21,662 nucleotides of DNA from a virus. The stretch covers positions 1-21,662 of the IMG/VR virus record IMGVR_UViG_3300008450_000535. One strand, 5' to 3'. The translations under genes and the position numbers were made by a program. The notes below the pieces were generated by a model. That model did not search any database. It had not been told where the DNA came from and saw only the letters and a list, made by a program, of their open reading frames with translations. Numbering within the stretch: position 1 is the stretch's first letter; each line of letters opens with the position of its first letter. This document shows positions 2,543 through 17,752 of this stretch, in pieces.

Positions 2543-2782
2543 ATGTTGGAAGTTAGAAAAGAATTAAAGGTTAGAAAGGACAATACTTATGTCCCAATAA
2601 ACCGATATGTTTTGACTAATTTACGACTTGATTTAGATAGTGAAATAATTACAATAAAGGTTCTATTCTACAGGAACGATGACCTATTATTTACCAAGTT
2701 ATTTAATATGGGTAAATGTGGTGATACGAATGTGAATGACCTAATCAAACAGGTTCATCAACAAATACAAAATGAAGGTTAA
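2543..2782 (+). CDS. Small hypothetical protein
   Basis: The 79-residue product begins with a basic stretch (MLEVRKELKVRKDN) and continues with predicted strands (YVLTNLRLDLDSEIITIKVL) and a C-terminal amphipathic helix ([16 protein letters not shown]). There is no membrane segment. I do not recognise the family. The gene begins 10 bases after the terminator T-run, and its last 11 bases overlap the ATG of the large adhesin gene, so the two are probably translated together. A helper or chaperone for the adhesin is possible but is only inferred from the overlap. Confidence 0.65.
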   Translation: MLEVRKELKVRKDNTYVPINRYVLTNLRLDLDSEIITIKVLFYRNDDLLFTKLFNMGKCGDTNVNDLIKQVHQQIQNEG

Positions 2783-5027
2783 ATCATTACTTACCCAATA
2801 CTTCCAAGGCGAACAAGTGTATAACTACGGGGGACAAGTTCCAGAAATATTATTTCCAAACCCAACCCCGCCACCAAGTCCAAGTCCATCATCTACACCT
2901 TCAATCACACCTACACAAACAAAGACCCCTACGCCGACGCCAAGTATTACGGCAACGATTACCCCAACGATTACTAACACACCTACAACAACACCTACCA
3001 ATACGAAGACCCCTACGCCTACAAGGACTTCAACACAGACCCCTACACCAACGAACACAGGCACACCGACACCGACACCTACCCAATCATCATTTACTTA
3101 TTCTATGACGGATTGTATTACGGGTGGAACTTCGTTTGGAAATTACAACACATCAACTTTGATATTGGGTGATGTTGTGAAATCATCGGTAAATAATCGT
3201 TGTTATACAATTCAATCATTAGAACCATTCTATAACCCATTAGGTCAAACCCTTATTGTTGGGACTTTCCCTGATTGTCCTACTTGTATTGGTCTGTATC
3301 AATTTACGGGATTGTTGTTTGATGGTTCAAGTGCGTTAGGTGCTTGTAATGGTATTTCTACACCTGATGCTTGGGGAAATATTCCTTATTGGGAGTTCAA
3401 TACAACCCTTTATTCTAATCCATATACCTTAAATCCATATCCTGCGGGATACTTGAATGGTTATGATGGTAATGTATTACAAATTGGAAGTGGTGGTGCT
3501 GTATTAGGTATTTCAGTATGTCCTTCACCGACGCCTACACCTACCAATACAACAACCCCTACGAACACAATAACACCGACACCGACAAGAACTTCGGCAG
3601 TTATTCCTGTTCTTTCACCTACCCCGACAGAAACGCCAACGGAAACACCTACACAGACACCGACCCCAACGAATACAGAAACGCCTACGCAGACACCTAC
3701 ACTTACACAGACCAAGACCCCAACACCAACAAGTGCTCCTTGTTCTACTTTCACATTATACAATTCAGGTTCAACCACAATTATCAACACTACTTATGTT
3801 GATTGTAGTGGTATTACCCAAAATACAGGAAATATACTTTCGGGTCAAACAATAACACTTTGTGCTAAAACTATAAAATCACAAACTAATTTAGTAATAA
3901 CTAATATTGGAAGTTGTCCTTTACCAACACCTACGACTACAGCGACACCGACTATCACACCAACACAAACGACTAGTCCAACGCCAAGTTGTAATTATTA
4001 TCAAGCAATAAATGATAGTTTAAGTGGGACATTATATTATGGTTATACCGATTGTGATGGAAATGTGATTACTTATGTTGAATTACCACCTTCATCAAGT
4101 CAATTCGTATGTGGTAGGGTTGCTCCATACTATATGTCTGGGGTCAATTCATTATCGGTAAATGATTTAGGTATTTGTCCTACACCGACGCCTACCCCTT
4201 CAATTACGCCTACTAACACACCCACACCTTCAATAACCCCAACAAACACAATAACCCCAAGTATTACCCCAAGTAATACCCCAAGTATCACACCTTCAAT
4301 CACACCTACAAATACACAGACACCAACAAAGACACCTACACAGACCCCTACATCTACACCTACTAGTGTATTATTATCGGGTGGAACTACTAGCACTTTT
4401 TCTAGTGGTGGAACAACATATAGGGTTCATACATTCACTTCTAATGGAACGATAAGTGTTATTAGGGGTGGTTTTGTTGAATTATTAGTAGTCGCTGGTG
4501 GTGGCGGTGGTGGTGGTGGTAGGTCAGCTGGAGGCTCTGGTGGTGGTGGAGGTGGTGGTGGAACACTATACTTACCATCGTTCTTGGTTTCATCAAGTTC
4601 GCCTGTATCTATTGGTAATGGTGGAGCAGGTGGTGGTAATTCATCTACAGGAACTAATGGTGATAATAGTGTTGTATTCGGTCAAGTGGCATTTGGTGGT
4701 GGTGGCGGTGGTTGTAATACAGCGTCAGGTTCTAATCCAGGATTGAATGGTGGTGCTGGTGGTGGTGCCGCTTGTGGTTCTATTGCTTTTGGAACAGGTG
4801 TCGCAGGTCAAGGAACAGATGGATTACCTGGTGGCGGAAATGGTGGTTCAGGAACTTACGCAGGATATTCTGTTGGTGGAACTGGAAATGGTTGTCCTGG
4901 TGGTGGTGTTATTACAGGTGCTAATGGTGCTGCCAACACGGGTAATGGTGGTGGCGGTGGTGTCGGTTCAACAGGTTTCGGTGGAAGTGGTGGTTCAGGA
5001 ATAATTAAAATTACATACGCAATATGA
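2772..5027 (+). CDS. Large Pro/Thr-repeat adhesin with Gly-rich C-terminal domain
   Basis: This 751-residue protein is built from globular modules joined by Pro-Thr linkers. Residues 1-30 form an N-terminal anchor ([18 protein letters not shown]). Four P/T/S/N tracts follow at about 31-106, 251-321, 383-406 and 470-533. Between them lie a ~140-residue domain with several Cys, then two short related modules with the plan Y-x-D-C-x-G ... L-x-(S/G) ... C ... V-x-x-(I/L)-G-x-C-P. From about residue 540 the chain forms a Gly-rich domain: a strand pair ([20 protein letters not shown], then [14 protein letters not shown]) opens the Gly-rich fold found at the ends of many phage fibres, and [13 protein letters not shown] closes it. 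No signal peptide is seen. It sits between capsid and portal genes, so it could be a head or neck fibre instead of a tail fibre. A role in binding cells or glycans is inferred from the domains. Confidence 0.75.
2862..3090 (+). repeat. Pro-Thr tract 1 of the adhesin gene
   Basis: The encoded chain is an irregular PTPTPS / TPTNT repeat of about 76 residues with virtually no acidic or hydrophobic residues, as expected of an extended, stiff linker. The DNA is C/A-rich (ACACCTACACC-like units). Codons vary between units, so perfect direct repeats at DNA level stay short. Confidence 0.85.
3521..3736 (+). repeat. Pro-Thr tract 2 of the adhesin gene
   Basis: A second linker of about 70 residues ([13 protein letters not shown], then [14 protein letters not shown]) joins the first globular domain to the first small Cys module. 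A few Glu residues distinguish it from tract 1. An anti-sense reading frame through this tract is only the complement of the repeat. Confidence 0.85.
3918..3989 (+). repeat. Pro-Thr tract 3 of the adhesin gene
   Basis: A short linker of about 24 residues ([20 protein letters not shown]) separates the two small Cys-containing modules. Confidence 0.8.
4179..4371 (+). repeat. Pro-Thr tract 4 of the adhesin gene
   Basis: A linker of about 64 residues with repeated [10 protein letters not shown] / SITPSNTP units joins the second small Cys module to the Gly-rich C-terminal domain. Confidence 0.85.
4489..5003 (+). repeat. Gly-rich region of the adhesin gene
   Basis: This GGTGGTGG-rich DNA encodes runs of 4-8 glycines broken by short Ser/Asn/Ala loops, such as AGGGGGGGG and NGGAGGGN. 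The pattern fits the polyglycine-type domain seen at phage fibre tips. Val-rich frames that run through the same DNA are products of the GGT repetition. Confidence 0.8.
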
Positions 5028-13476: not shown

Positions 13477-13501
13477 TTGTGATTGTCCTATATTGTGAAA
13501 G

Positions 13502-13531
13502 ACCCTAACCCGAAAAGGTTAGGGTTTTTTT
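13502..13531 (+). terminator. Rho-independent terminator at the right border of the cassette
   Basis: CCCTAACC at 13503-13510 pairs with GGTTAGGG at 13517-13524, with an extra A-T pair outside, around a CGAAAA loop, and seven T follow at 13525-13531. It shields the large terminase from the cassette promoters. Confidence 0.92.
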
Positions 13532-13542
13532 GTTATGTATCT

Positions 13543-13568
13543 TTTTACAACATAAACTATATTTATAG
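13543..13568 (+). promoter_or_regulatory. Phage-type promoter candidate for the large terminase operon
   Basis: TTTTACAACATAAA at 13543-13556 is directly followed by CTATATTTATAG, combining the two elements that recur in this window (14 bases identical with 11650-11663, 11 bases identical with 5481-5491). It stands between a terminator and the first gene of a long operon, which is where a promoter is required. No TTTG/TAnnTTTG pair of the host type is found here. Confidence 0.5.
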
Positions 13569-13573
13569 TATTC

Positions 13574-13593
13574 TGGGGGATTACCCCATTTTT
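13574..13593 (+). terminator. Leader hairpin with T-run just before the large terminase start
   Basis: TGGGG at 13574-13578 pairs with CCCCA at 13584-13588 around GATTA, followed by TTTTT to 13593; the ATG is at 13597. It has the form of a short intrinsic terminator but lies within the expected first 30 bases of the transcript. It may be an attenuator, or a 5' hairpin controlling access of ribosomes. Confidence 0.5.
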
Positions 13594-13596
13594 CGT

Positions 13597-14772
13597 ATGG
13601 AAGTAAAAGTATCAACATTATACTTGGATATAGACAAGGCAGTAAAGGAAGGTAAAAGACATATATTCCTTCGTGGCTCATCTAGAAGTGGTAAGACATA
13701 TCAAACCATATCTTACTTGATTTTATACATTCTACAGAACCCCAACACAACAATCACGATAGTAAGGGACACACTTGTATCTATCCGTAATTCTGTTCTA
13801 TTGGATTTTCAGGAAGTAATGAACCAAATGGGTTTATACAATCCTGAACTATTCAACAAAACAGAAGTAATCTACAGGTTTGATAATGGTTCATTAGTAA
13901 GGTTCTTGGGGGCAGATGATGGTTCAGGAAAACTTCGTGGTATGAAACAAGACATCGTATTCATCAACGAAATTACATCAGTCAGTCAAGATGCGTTTAT
14001 TCAGTTAGACATAAGAACTAGTAGGTTCATCATCGCAGATTACAACCCATCGGCTAGTGAAGATTGGTTCGTTTATGAATTGGAAGAAAGACCTGAAAAC
14101 CAACTAATCATTTCAACCTACTTACAAAATCCTTTCCTTGATGAAAGGATTGTAAAATCTATTGAAGGGTTGAAAGACATAGACCCTGAAATGTATGAAG
14201 TTTATGCGTTGGGTAAAAAGATTAAACCCCGTGAAACAATCTTTATCAACTGGGAAGTGGTTAAAGAAGCACCAAGATATTCCAAGATGTTAGGTGTAGG
14301 AATTGACTGGGGTTATAGTAATGACGAATGTGCGTGTGTGTGGGGACTTATCAACGAACCTGATAATGTAATCTACCTGAAGGAAGTATTCTACGATAAG
14401 GGATTGTCTAGTGATGATATATTATTCAAGATGCGTGATGGTGGATTACAGAAGACCTTTGAGGTCATCGCCGACAGCAGCGAACCCCGTATGATTGATG
14501 AATTAAAGAAGGGTGGTTATTCAAGAACAAGGGGGGTAAAGAAAGAAGCAGGTTCAGTCCTGTATGGTATAACCGAAATGAAAAAGTATAAACTACAGAT
14601 TGACGCTTCATCAACTAACTTGATAGAAGAACTAAAGAACTATAAATGGTTTAAGGATAGGTCAGGAAACATCACAAGTAAGACGACAGGTAAAGACCAC
14701 TTGATAGATGCGGCAAGATACTTGATTACGGAAATGACCTATAAACCAAAAGTGAAATATTCATTTATGTAA
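13597..14772 (+). CDS. terL: Terminase large subunit
   Basis: This is the motor that pumps and cuts phage DNA. From ATG 13597 the protein has 391 residues; the in-frame extension to 13483 would cross the terminator and promoter and is rejected. The ATPase half has Walker A RGSSRSGKT (26-34), Walker B DIVFINE (119-125, catalytic Glu 125) and a coupling-type motif IADYNPSAS (146-154). The RNase H-like nuclease half has GIDWGYSND (235-243, Asp 237), VIADSSEP (290-297, Asp 293) and DHLIDAARY (367-375), giving the three acidic clusters for metal binding. The length is a little below the usual 420-500. It starts a long operon of tail and adhesin genes, and the likely small subunit is encoded at 10514-10960, on the far side of the small-gene cassette. 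Confidence 0.93.
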   Translation: MEVKVSTLYLDIDKAVKEGKRHIFLRGSSRSGKTYQTISYLILYILQNPNTTITIVRDTLVSIRNSVLLDFQEVMNQMGLYNPELFNKTEVIYRFDNGSLVRFLGADDGSGKLRGMKQDIVFINEITSVSQDAFIQLDIRTSRFIIADYNPSASEDWFVYELEERPENQLIISTYLQNPFLDERIVKSIEGLKDIDPEMYEVYALGKKIKPRETIFINWEVVKEAPRYSKMLGVGIDWGYSNDECACVWGLINEPDNVIYLKEVFYDKGLSSDDILFKMRDGGLQKTFEVIADSSEPRMIDELKKGGYSRTRGVKKEAGSVLYGITEMKKYKLQIDASSTNLIEELKNYKWFKDRSGNITSKTTGKDHLIDAARYLITEMTYKPKVKYSFM

Positions 14773-14936
14773 TGAAACTTAAAAGAAACGGAAAACGATA
14801 CGACTACGATTACAACGCTGTTGTAATGAAGGGGGAATACTTTAGAGCCCTACAAAAATTAGCAAAACAACATAAACAACCATTAGGTAAAATGATAAGT
14901 ATATTGGTAGAACATTATGAAAGTAGTATTAGGTAA
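14772..14936 (+). CDS. Small ribbon-helix-helix-like protein
   Basis: A 54-residue frame starts at a TAATG overlap with the terminase stop. After a basic beginning (MKLKRNGKRYDYDYN) it shows a strand (AVVMKGEYF), a helix (RALQKLAKQHKQ) and a second helix (PLGKMISILVEHYESS), the order and length of an Arc/CopG-type ribbon-helix-helix domain that binds DNA as a dimer through the strand. The gene overlaps the following one by 20 bases. It may be a repressor of late genes or an accessory of packaging. The fold is inferred from sequence pattern only. Confidence 0.6.
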   Translation: MKLKRNGKRYDYDYNAVVMKGEYFRALQKLAKQHKQPLGKMISILVEHYESSIR

Positions 14937-15531
14937 GAAGGAATATGGGGTATTACCCATCACTATAGAGCAGTATGAATTACTGAAGAATAACCCCGAC
15001 ATCAAAGCAACGGAACTTATTACGATGATGACGGGAGCACCGATTGAAGAAGTTAAACAGGCACCTTTTACACAAGTATCATTTGTGGCTAAAATGTTGA
15101 TGACTGAATGGTCTAATACAGATACAACCCCGTTGAACTTGGTTGTTGATTTCAAGGGTAAGAAGTATGGTCTAATTAAACCATCACAATTATCCTATGA
15201 AGAATGGATAAACCTTGAAGTGTTTATGGCTGAAAGTCCTTTGGATTTGGTTAAACTGGCAACCCACATATACAAACCATTAGCGAACGATAAGATAGGT
15301 GAAGATAGGGAACTTATCCCCTATTCATTAGACGAGTGTATGGGTCGTCTAAATGACTTCAAGCAATTCCCTATAACTTGGTTATTTAGCAGCCTTTTTT
15401 TTTTAACAACTTTCGTTCAAGAACTTACAAAAGCTTCCCTATCATATATGGAGACGAAAGCGATAGAGAGCAAAACAAAAGACAAAACAAAAACAAAGAT
15501 ACTACGACAGAAGAAGTCCAACAATCCGTAG
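14917..15531 (+). CDS. Tail assembly chaperone-like protein (zero-frame product)
   Basis: The 204-residue product starts with a strand-rich part (MKVVLGKKEYGVLPITIEQY), then helices (NPDIKATELITMMTGAPIEE) and a predicted second beta part (TPLNLVVDFKGKKYGLIKPS), where the target peptide of tape-measure chaperones might bind. The C-terminal 45 residues change to a hydrophobic patch (ITWLFSSLFFLTTFV) and a Lys/Thr-rich tail. The call rests on three points: position after the terminase and at the start of the tail genes, length, and a T10 run at 15395-15404 that lets ribosomes enter an overlapping -1 frame, as in gpG/gpGT-type chaperone pairs. In such systems both products fold the tape-measure protein. 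No tape measure is visible downstream in this window, which weakens the call. Confidence 0.55.
   Translation: MKVVLGKKEYGVLPITIEQYELLKNNPDIKATELITMMTGAPIEEVKQAPFTQVSFVAKMLMTEWSNTDTTPLNLVVDFKGKKYGLIKPSQLSYEEWINLEVFMAESPLDLVKLATHIYKPLANDKIGEDRELIPYSLDECMGRLNDFKQFPITWLFSSLFFLTTFVQELTKASLSYMETKAIESKTKDKTKTKILRQKKSNNP
15395..15460 (+). promoter_or_regulatory. Probable -1 frameshift site with downstream stem
   Basis: Ten T at 15395-15404 followed by A include T TTT TTA (15399-15405) in the zero frame, the same heptamer as used by HIV-1 gag-pol. CTTTCGT at 15410-15416 can pair with ACGAAAG at 15454-15460 (7 bp plus one G-T), starting four bases after the heptamer, the usual place for a stimulatory structure. 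A T10 run can also cause RNA-polymerase slippage, with the same outcome. Confidence 0.6.
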
Positions 15532-15692
15532 TAGATTTTTATTACCAATCACTTATGTTGTGCGCTCAAGACGACATCTTAAAGGTAAATCCTGTTCTTA
15601 AATTAGAATTGTTTGAGGTATTAGGGTATTTATCATATAGGTTGGATAAAGCCCATAAAGAAAACCAACGACATCAAAAAGCAATACAATAA
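15405..15692 (+). CDS. -1 frame extension of the tail assembly chaperone-like gene
   Basis: The -1 frame is open from 15390 to a TAA at 15690-15692, in a stretch where the zero frame ends at 15531 and no other gene would fill the last 160 bases. The 95 residues read from the slip site include KDTTTEEVQQSVVDFYYQSL and MLCAQDDILKVNPVLKLELF, then EVLGYLSYRLDKAHKEN: a helical, charged, protein-like sequence with the codon use of its neighbours. The joined product would have about 258 residues (163 + 95). Its stop overlaps the ATG of the next gene as TAATG, like other gene joints here. An ATG at 15555 could start a separate 45-residue protein instead; the long open overlap before it argues for frameshifting. 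Confidence 0.6.
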   Translation, partial: NNFRSRTYKSFPIIYGDESDREQNKRQNKNKDTTTEEVQQSVVDFYYQSLMLCAQDDILKVNPVLKLELFEVLGYLSYRLDKAHKENQRHQKAIQ

Positions 15693-17752
15693 TGACTATA
15701 AAAGATATTATACAATTATTCGGTTATTTCACAGCACAACACCCGATATTACGAACTTTCAGTTGGGGTAATCTAGCTGACTATTCAAGGGATAATTACA
15801 TCACCGAATATCCTGCGTTCCACGCAGTTCCACAGCCTTCTTTGGTTGAAAAGAATTATGCTGATTTTAATTTCAACATTTTAATCTACGATTTGTTAAA
15901 TGAATATGTAGATGGAGACCCAATCAATTCTAATCAGTTGGATAGTTTGGCTTTGACCGAAACTATCCTAAATGACTTCTATGCGTTCTTTACAAACCAA
16001 CTAACCCAATACGGATACTTCTTGACTACAAGTGTGAATTACACACCCTTTATGGATAGATTTTCCCAAGATGTTTGTGGGGTTGAAGCAACCATTACCA
16101 TCAGGGTAGAACAGACGGCTTGTATTCCTGCCTTCATAACTGAAAATGGTTTCTTGTTATACGAAAACGGAAACACGATGACTAGTGAAGATTGTGAAGT
16201 GGTGAATTATAGTTCCCCTTCTTGTCCTAATGAAACCATCGGTCAATTACCAATCTTTAGTGGTGATTATACTGGTGGTTGGGTAGTGTTTAATAATTCA
16301 GGTAATACAATCACTTACAGAATAAATGTAGATGACTTGAAAGGTAATTCAGGAACATCAGGCACGAGCGGAACTTCGGGGACATCAGGTAGTAGTGGAA
16401 CATCAGGACAGAACGGAACTAGTGGTAGTTCAGGAACTTCAGGTTCATCGGGGACTAGTGGTATATCAGGTTCGTCAGGTAGTTCAGGAACAAGTGGTTC
16501 TTCAGGACAGGACGGAACATCAGGTTCGTCAGGGACTTCGGGTAGTTCAGGCACTAGTGGCACATCGGGGACTTCAGGTAGTTCAGGAACATCAGGAATA
16601 AACGGACAATCCAATTCGTTTTTTGATTATCAAGCGAAGACAACCATAACAACTGGCGACCCCGCATCAGGTCATATCATTTGGGATAATTCATCACAAA
16701 CGGGAGCAACAAGTATAAATGTTAGTGAAATAAAACAGGGTGGGGATAATATTGATTTATTCTTATCTAATATCCCATCAGGTTCAACCATAACAATCCA
16801 AGATAAAACAAACCACACTTTATATCAAACCTATATTGTTGGAGCATCTACGGACAATTCTACTTATTGGACTTTCCCAATTACTTTGGTTAGTGCGACC
16901 ACCACATTTGGAAACAACGATGATGTGTTATTCATCTTTGTAAATCTACCATCAGGAACATCAGGAACTTCAGGTTCAAGTGGTTCGTCAGGTAGTTCAG
17001 GAACTAGTGGGGTTTCAGGAACATCAGGTAGTAGTGGAACGAGTGGTAGTTCAGGAACGAGCGGCACATCGGGAACAAGTTTTAGATGGCGTGGTGGTTG
17101 GGGTGCTTTTGTTTCTTATCTTGTAAATGATGTTGTATCCTATAATGGTTCTAGTTATGTTTGTATTGTCGCAAATACATCAAGTTTTTTCCCACCCCCA
17201 AGTAGCGACCCTACAAACTGGTCTTTGATGGCTCAAGCAGGAACTAACGGAACATCAGGTAGTTCAGGAACATCAGGACAGAATGGAACAAGTGGTAGTT
17301 CAGGGACTTCAGGAAGTTCAGGAACGAGCGGTTCATCATCAGCGGTAGATGTGTATAGCGGGGGAACTTTGGTTGTATCACAAGCAACCAGATTAGATTT
17401 TTCAGGAGCAACAATCACTAGTGGTGGAACGGGTATTGCCGAAATCGTCATTACAGGTGGCGGTGGTGGTGGGGGAACTGACCCTATCCGTGTGTTAAAT
17501 CAAACATTATCAACTTCAGGTTGGACTTACAATACAGGAACAACCTATTACGATTACACCTATAGTAATGGTTCTATTACTTCTGCTTCAAGGGTGGATT
17601 TCGTCCCATATAATTCATCAGCATATACCGCACAGGTTGCTAGGGTTCAAGCCTATAATTCAGTAGGTTCAGGGACATCAACATTTTATTCACAATATCC
17701 CCCGACTGCTAATATCACAGGGGACATATACATATTCACAACAACACCATAA
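15692..17752 (+). CDS. Tail-completion-like domain fused to collagen-like repeats and binding modules
   Basis: This 686-residue protein has at least five parts. Residues 1-~150 (AQHPILRTFSWGNLADYSRD, FHAVPQPSLVEKNYADFNFN, then PFMDRFSQDVCGVEATITIR) match a ~150-residue domain I know as a stand-alone protein in the tail region of Bacteroidota phages, possibly a tail terminator. After a short linker, GTSGSSG repeats occupy about 218-305, 420-462 and 517-549. A beta domain sits at ~310-415. At ~464-515, RWRGGWGAFVSYLVNDVVSY followed by NGSSYVCI and DPTNWSLMA is a good match to the chitin-binding type-3 / CBM5-12-like module. The last ~135 residues are beta-rich (GWTYNTGTTYYDYTYSNGSI) and end in TGDIYIFTTTP, probably the receptor-binding tip. 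The function is most likely a tail-attached fibre that binds host surface glycans. Confidence 0.75.
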   Translation: MTIKDIIQLFGYFTAQHPILRTFSWGNLADYSRDNYITEYPAFHAVPQPSLVEKNYADFNFNILIYDLLNEYVDGDPINSNQLDSLALTETILNDFYAFFTNQLTQYGYFLTTSVNYTPFMDRFSQDVCGVEATITIRVEQTACIPAFITENGFLLYENGNTMTSEDCEVVNYSSPSCPNETIGQLPIFSGDYTGGWVVFNNSGNTITYRINVDDLKGNSGTSGTSGTSGTSGSSGTSGQNGTSGSSGTSGSSGTSGISGSSGSSGTSGSSGQDGTSGSSGTSGSSGTSGTSGTSGSSGTSGINGQSNSFFDYQAKTTITTGDPASGHIIWDNSSQTGATSINVSEIKQGGDNIDLFLSNIPSGSTITIQDKTNHTLYQTYIVGASTDNSTYWTFPITLVSATTTFGNNDDVLFIFVNLPSGTSGTSGSSGSSGSSGTSGVSGTSGSSGTSGSSGTSGTSGTSFRWRGGWGAFVSYLVNDVVSYNGSSYVCIVANTSSFFPPPSSDPTNWSLMAQAGTNGTSGSSGTSGQNGTSGSSGTSGSSGTSGSSSAVDVYSGGTLVVSQATRLDFSGATITSGGTGIAEIVITGGGGGGGTDPIRVLNQTLSTSGWTYNTGTTYYDYTYSNGSITSASRVDFVPYNSSAYTAQVARVQAYNSVGSGTSTFYSQYPPTANITGDIYIFTTTP
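16343..16608 (+). repeat. GTSG/SSG repeat block 1
   Basis: About 88 residues of G-x-S triplets (GTS, GSS, with QNG, QDG and ISG variants) form a collagen-like Gly-every-third pattern without proline. Serine codons alternate between TCA, TCG, AGT and AGC and glycine between GGA, GGT, GGC and GGG, so the DNA repeats are imperfect. Confidence 0.9.
16950..17080 (+). repeat. GTSG/SSG repeat block 2
   Basis: About 43 residues of the same Gly-x-Ser pattern, between the middle beta domain and the chitin-binding-like module. Confidence 0.9.
17240..17340 (+). repeat. GTSG/SSG repeat block 3
   Basis: About 33 residues of the same pattern, between the chitin-binding-like module and the C-terminal tip domain. 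Reverse-strand frames rich in VPELP here are complements of the repeat. Confidence 0.9.

Follow-up and report, generated by a model that had tools for sequence, protein, structure and literature searches.

Organisation of the slip gene and its neighbourhood

The window analysed here (the whole stretch of 21,662 nucleotides, corresponding to positions 1 to 21,662 of IMG/VR virus record IMGVR_UViG_3300008450_000535) contains on its plus strand a gene for the large terminase subunit (TerL; Terminase_3, 13483-14772), followed by an open reading frame of 54 amino acids (14772-14936) and then, as the second gene after the terminase, a zero-frame gene of 204 amino acids (14917-15531) that is referred to below as the slip gene. 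The encoded protein has no Pfam match and is not named by any database family, but emerges from the comparisons described below as a homologue of P12024S_38 and as a candidate gpG-like tail assembly chaperone. Reading in the zero frame passes through a run of ten T (T10, 15395-15404, plus strand) as CTT TTT TTT TTA (15394-15405), with heptamers in phase at 15396-15402 (T TTT TTT) and 15399-15405 (T TTT TTA), and no other gene-internal run of T or A in the window reaches nine. The -1 frame is open from 15390 to 15692 on the same strand, bounded by stops at 15387 and 15690 (TAA, 15690-15692), and would encode a GT-like C-terminal part; its stop codon overlaps the ATG of the next gene in a TAATG joint (15690-15694, plus strand). 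A switch of frame at the run would join the -1 part to residues 1-162 of the zero-frame protein in a fusion of 258 amino acids, these 162 residues being common to both products, while the last 42 residues of the 204-residue product, which are rich in Lys, belong to the zero frame only.

The T10 with its in-phase T TTT TTA, the open -1 frame, products of 204 and about 258 residues and the TAATG joint had all been claimed in a preliminary description of this DNA, and were recovered at the positions and lengths given above. The programmed -1 slip that was also proposed there is, in the form of -1-type recoding at the T-run, very strongly supported by the comparison of relatives. On that basis the gene is predicted to yield two products with a common N-terminus from a -1-type switch at the run, and is almost certainly recoded there in some way.

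The gene downstream of the slip gene (15692-17752, plus strand) encodes an N-terminal part of ∼156 amino acids, which we guess to be of neck or tail type, and a fibre-like part composed of GTSG repeats. This GTSG-repeat protein and a long PTPTPT-repeat protein encoded at 2772-5027 are probably adhesins or fibres. The repeat proteins of the window turn over rapidly between relatives and, in the related phage G001, the fibre part has a gene of its own.

Conservation of both frames in close relatives

Three scans of IMG/VR recovered ∼70 contigs that carry the slip gene, from which 34 distinct sequences were taken as family 1, with identities of ∼50-90% between the zero frames of the aligned members. 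These sequences combine, in 34/34 cases, 9-11 consecutive T at matching codons with an open -1 frame, and the -1 peptide is conserved as FFFNNFR..TY..FPIIYGDE...DFYYQSLMLCAQDDILKVNPVLKLELFEVLGYLSYRLDKA. Within the overlap, 13 close relatives gave an N/S relative to neutral of 0.43 in the -1 frame versus 1.25 in the zero frame, indicating stronger constraint on the -1 frame in this segment. Upstream of the overlap the relative N/S was 0.45 in frame 0, and past the zero-frame stop it was 0.11 in frame -1. The substitution pattern is accordingly that of the zero frame before the overlap, mainly that of the -1 frame within it and that of the -1 frame after it, which argues that translation follows the -1 frame from the run onward.

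Two contigs (L023 and L024) stop inside the T-run, and one assembly (L082) carries T9, as against T10 in its sisters L080 and L081, with the result that its frame is broken. These cases probably reflect assembly trouble at the homopolymer, real variants in length being possible.

Distant relatives in cultured phages and Bacteroidota genomes

A tblastn search of cultured phages with the window gene returned no match. AlphaFold models of the slip-gene proteins are of low confidence; that of the zero-frame protein nonetheless gave matches to 31 phage proteins at E <0.001. One of these, I6R9M9 of the cultured Nonlabens (Persicivirga) phage P12024S, was taken as P12024S_38, the product of the gene directly after TerL, from its length of 175 amino acids. 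The link between the window gene and P12024S, made first via the predicted fold, was then confirmed by profile comparison, in which hhalign against P12024S-type proteins gave 97.5% (E 5.5e-12) and 96% (E 3.3e-9) for the two frames at an identity of ∼20-25% for both. Comparison of the -1 peptide with homologues, as suggested in the preliminary description, hence showed the -1 frame to be homologous to that of the P12024S-type relatives. In P12024S itself (JQ823122, 23136-23830) a T9 lies at the matching codons and the -1 frame runs on into P12024S_39, although the annotation treats _38 and _39 as hypothetical proteins unrelated to each other, and PHROGs 32199 and 38404 split them likewise. Their similarity to the window proteins is only distant; _38 and _39 very probably constitute one recoded pair. 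In the case of Flavobacterium phage 6H, protein R9VW65 was considered as a further relative and rejected, no convincing matching slip being found.

The P12024S-type sequences, designated family 2, have at least 570 relatives in IMG/VR, and the run was T9 in 109 of 110 distinct windows and T10 in the remaining one. A scan of GTDB added nine relatives, all from Bacteroidota and all with T9 or T10, of which the eight distinct ones were counted in the final table. In Dysgonomonas the slip gene is chromosomal in 20/25 genomes, and the copies that were read have exactly T9 in 12/12 cases, generated by a different codon layout. The named strain Galbibacter pacificus CAA-3 carries a prophage-like block (L326, 8188-18901) in which TerL, a T9 slip gene, connectors, tape measure and capsid follow one another in the order seen in the window phage, and which represents a good experimental system.

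Invariance of the T-run

In total 197 distinct relatives were compared (34 + 144 + 8 + 11 distinct sequences), covering IMG/VR phages, the cultured P12024S, Bacteroidota genomes and chromosomal Dysgonomonas genes. Of these, 197/197 carry 9, 10 or 11 uninterrupted T at matching codons and have both frames open, and no run of T7 or T8 was found at the slip site in any of them. The run results from the codon layouts NTT TTT TTT TAY/TGG, CTT TTT TTT TTA and N[CG]T TTT TTT TTR, such that a left codon with one T (GCT, GGT or AGT) is always accompanied by at least two T on the right side and a left codon with two T permits a right side that gives one, with the compensating layouts representing only about three independent lineages. 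Since all of the seeds used for retrieval were codon-degenerate, the T-run itself was not selected. The FFYHLGN seed with which contigs were fetched could introduce a bias in the residues seen at the run, to which the WGWY-seeded pattern and the genome scan are less subject. Requirements of the protein may maintain the residues that flank FF, and this could also hold the run near nine.

Nature of the slippage signal

The preliminary description had drawn attention to a stem beginning four bases past the heptamer. A stem of 7-8 bp does exist in the window, where CTTTCGTT (15410-15417) can pair over 8 bp with GACGAAAG (15453-15460) within 15410-15460 of the plus strand, but it is lost or replaced in most relatives; having been kept in only a few close ones, it was rejected as a required element and is probably incidental. 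Folding of the downstream sequence gave no structure signal in family 2 (mean z ∼0, n=80) and slightly negative values in family 1 (z -0.8 to -1.1), the sequences of which are not independent. No use of Shine-Dalgarno sequences was detected in the genomes of these phages, and Bacteroidia ribosomes are reported not to recognise such sequences (PMC9976891). The comparison consequently revealed neither of the stimulators associated with programmed -1 ribosomal frameshifting, i.e. a downstream structure or an upstream Shine-Dalgarno-like element. Since the stem is not conserved, family 2 shows no structure and Shine-Dalgarno signals are lacking, it is the run alone that constitutes the signal.

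RNA polymerase or ribosome as the slipping machine

According to the proposed mechanism, translation from one start would give rise to two proteins, most of the product being the 204-residue zero-frame protein and a fraction switching to the -1 frame at T10 to give the 258-residue fusion with its conserved C-terminal domain. The T10 run would be the entire signal, operating without a conserved stem or Shine-Dalgarno-like stimulator. RNA polymerase would add one U (or lose two) in some transcripts at runs of at least nine T, with a possible contribution from -1 slippage of the ribosome on U UUU UUN. Both the slipping machine and the ratio of the products are what we infer from the comparisons presented here, which tilt somewhat towards slippage by RNA polymerase, either alone or together with the ribosome.

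The preliminary description had allowed for slippage by both machines, and the part played by the polymerase has since been strengthened, though not proven, by the floor of T9 and by the avoidance of such runs elsewhere. Outside the slip gene, T9+ runs occur once in ∼620 kb of coding sequence from these phages versus ∼8.5 expected from shuffles of synonymous codons (five listed genes having been set aside as fragments of the slip-gene family), and A9+ runs seven times versus ∼38 expected. Similar shuffles of other Dysgonomonas coding sequence gave 1 versus 9.0 for T9+ and 6 versus 37 for A9+. The depletion of T7 is independent of phase, with 31 of 57.5 expected in the slip-prone phase versus 35 of 69.8 outside it. 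A conserved run of at least nine T together with avoidance of such runs in other coding sequence is the pattern looked for in transcriptional slippage. In many bacterial genomes, selection against slippage-prone runs becomes visible at a length of nine (PMC1088944). Since a heptamer requires only seven nucleotides, the T9 floor and the phase-independent avoidance elsewhere favour slippage of RNA polymerase. They do not prove it, because a T9, whatever its phase, includes an in-phase T TTT TTT; for the same reason the phase of the run was discarded as a means of discriminating between the machines. Nor is the avoidance specific to RNA polymerase, since long runs also invite slippage during DNA replication. 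An early stop in the +1 frame, located within 15 nt in 173/178 phage sequences, was likewise rejected as proof of polymerase slippage, because the two coding frames of family 2 make it unavoidable there and Dysgonomonas lacks it.

Frameshifting by the ribosome only, in which the P- and A-site tRNAs would slip on U UUU UUU or U UUU UUA and the extra T's would be a by-product of conserved residues, is a serious possibility that falls short of being probable. It fits the in-phase T TTT TTN heptamer that is present in every one of the 197 relatives, the precedent of known G/GT pairs, since all tail-chaperone slips in one review are described as ribosomal (PMC5009743), and the hairpins that are possible in some members of family 1. 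However, the downstream structure is not conserved, a Shine-Dalgarno stimulator would not be expected to work in this phylum (PMC9976891), runs of seven or eight T number 0/197, and the independence from phase of T7 depletion elsewhere also stands against it. Returning to the polymerase, the more specific proposal that, throughout this lineage of Bacteroidota phages and the Dysgonomonas set, the chaperone ratio is set by RNA-polymerase slippage on an obligatory T9+ as opposed to the ribosome has, on our estimate, an even chance of being correct. The hosts concerned would, on this reading, have ribosomes that cannot use Shine-Dalgarno stimulators.

A putative tail assembly chaperone

Two forms, short and long, that share their N-terminus and occur in long-tailed phages with a tape measure point to a G/GT-type tail assembly chaperone, and by analogy we consider this assignment of the slip-gene pair to be probable. 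As with lambda gpG and gpGT, the products would then cover the tape measure and bring in the tail tube. The role in tail assembly put forward in the preliminary description stands as a good inference from the long-tailed context and from Dysgonomonas, where the slip gene adjoins tape-measure genes, but a match in sequence to a named family has not materialised: searches against tail-chaperone families gave none in Pfam, and in PHROG only families of unknown function or a weak match to the 'tail protein' family phrog_166, the latter in 5/28 members. Foldseek, run with a model of pLDDT 66, returned uncharacterised phage proteins, one protein annotated as a tail assembly chaperone at E 0.12, and no match in the PDB. 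Weak Foldseek matches to T4 gp26 and gp51 were also seen; a link to these proteins is not claimed, because they fall in phrog_150, which differs from the weakly matched phrog_166.

The position between major tail protein and tape measure that is typical of G/GT genes was not observed in the window family, P12024S or Galbibacter. In all three the slip gene follows TerL and the tape measure lies ∼4-9 kb further on (∼8.9 kb in G001), the tape-measure gene being recognised by the character of its sequence in G001 and by family match in P12024S and Galbibacter. Since the slip gene follows the terminase, a different role for a genuinely recoded gene, as a neck, baseplate or packaging factor, suggests itself, and would be compatible with either mechanism of slippage. 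The retention of the post-TerL position in these three settings and the lack of a sequence match to any tail-chaperone family speak for such a role, but it is unlikely given the G/GT pattern of the products, the long-tailed genomes with their tape-measure gene, the tape-measure neighbours in Dysgonomonas and the weak phrog_166 match.

Alternatives to recoding

The existence of two separate genes, with the -1 part starting by itself through internal initiation or reinitiation, is very improbable. In its favour, the annotation gives P12024S_39 a separate ATG, which overlaps the stop of _38, and a Met located 45 residues before the end of the -1 part is conserved in family 1. Against this, the -1 frame is conserved and under purifying selection back to the run (FF[FL]xxFR), it has no ATG from the upstream stop to +130 nt in 185/197 relatives, and separate genes would leave the invariance of the T-run without a reason; an internal start was rejected on these grounds. 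The preliminary description had named, as an outcome contrary to slippage, homologues in which the -1 part is a separate ATG gene with no conserved open frame before it, whereas the frame of P12024S_39 proved to be open and homologous as far as the run. Error in sequencing or assembly of the homopolymer, or decay of the gene, might be suspected from the T9 of L082 and the contigs that end in the run, but is refuted by the recurrence of the run and both frames in many independent metagenomes, cultured P12024S/L and Bacteroidota genomes, and by the conservation of both the zero-frame and the -1 tails, leaving it a negligible probability.

Relation to known systems

Lambda gpG/gpGT and relatives are tail assembly chaperones produced via -1 ribosomal frameshifting, and G/GT recoding is known (PMC5009743). 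The present pair resembles them in belonging to long-tailed phages and in the low conservation of sequence between families. It differs in having as its slip site nothing but 9-11 consecutive T, maintained much more strictly than a heptamer and without conserved stimulators, in a gene that mostly follows the terminase as opposed to the major tail protein and lacks a sequence match to the named chaperone families. Transcriptional slippage is likewise already known in bacterial genes, including those of secretion systems (PMC5009743, PMC4256274). Thermus dnaX (A9), Shigella mxiE and spa13 and Citrobacter tssM share with the slip gene a homopolymer of A or T with a length of at least about nine, at which the product is lengthened or shortened in some transcripts with no need of stimulators (PMC1088944, PMC5009743, PMC4256274), but unlike the slip gene these are bacterial genes. 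A further counterpart is P12024S _38/_39, with homology in both frames, the location after TerL and T9 at the same codons. The literature searched contained neither a phage tail chaperone made by transcriptional slippage nor one with a T9+ run as its only signal across the phages of a phylum.

The analysis names a large unannotated family, with the IMG/VR relatives counted above, as a recoded, tail-chaperone-like pair, whose gene is split by gene callers or whose long form is missed. If the polymerase slips, then the short-to-long ratio needed in tail assembly would be set at transcription; phages would in that case have solved a classic problem in a different way, one testable in cultured hosts (Nonlabens with P12024S, Galbibacter pacificus CAA-3 and Dysgonomonas). 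The floor of nine T would furthermore serve as a natural gauge of polymerase slippage in Bacteroidota.

Phage structural genes in Dysgonomonas

The structural genes of phage type in Dysgonomonas (L328, L329 and L345-L349) are scattered among host genes, and comprise TerL, portal, a DUF6712 connector, neck-like proteins, tape measure, the T9 slip gene and large tail proteins. A literature search on this gene set returned no paper. The set looks to be domesticated and vertically inherited, and is perhaps a gene-transfer agent. TerL is present in 23/25 genomes, usually as a single copy and mostly 67-72% identical to the query; in one genome (G031) it lies at 4.539 Mb, with slip genes at 4.974 and 5.001 Mb.
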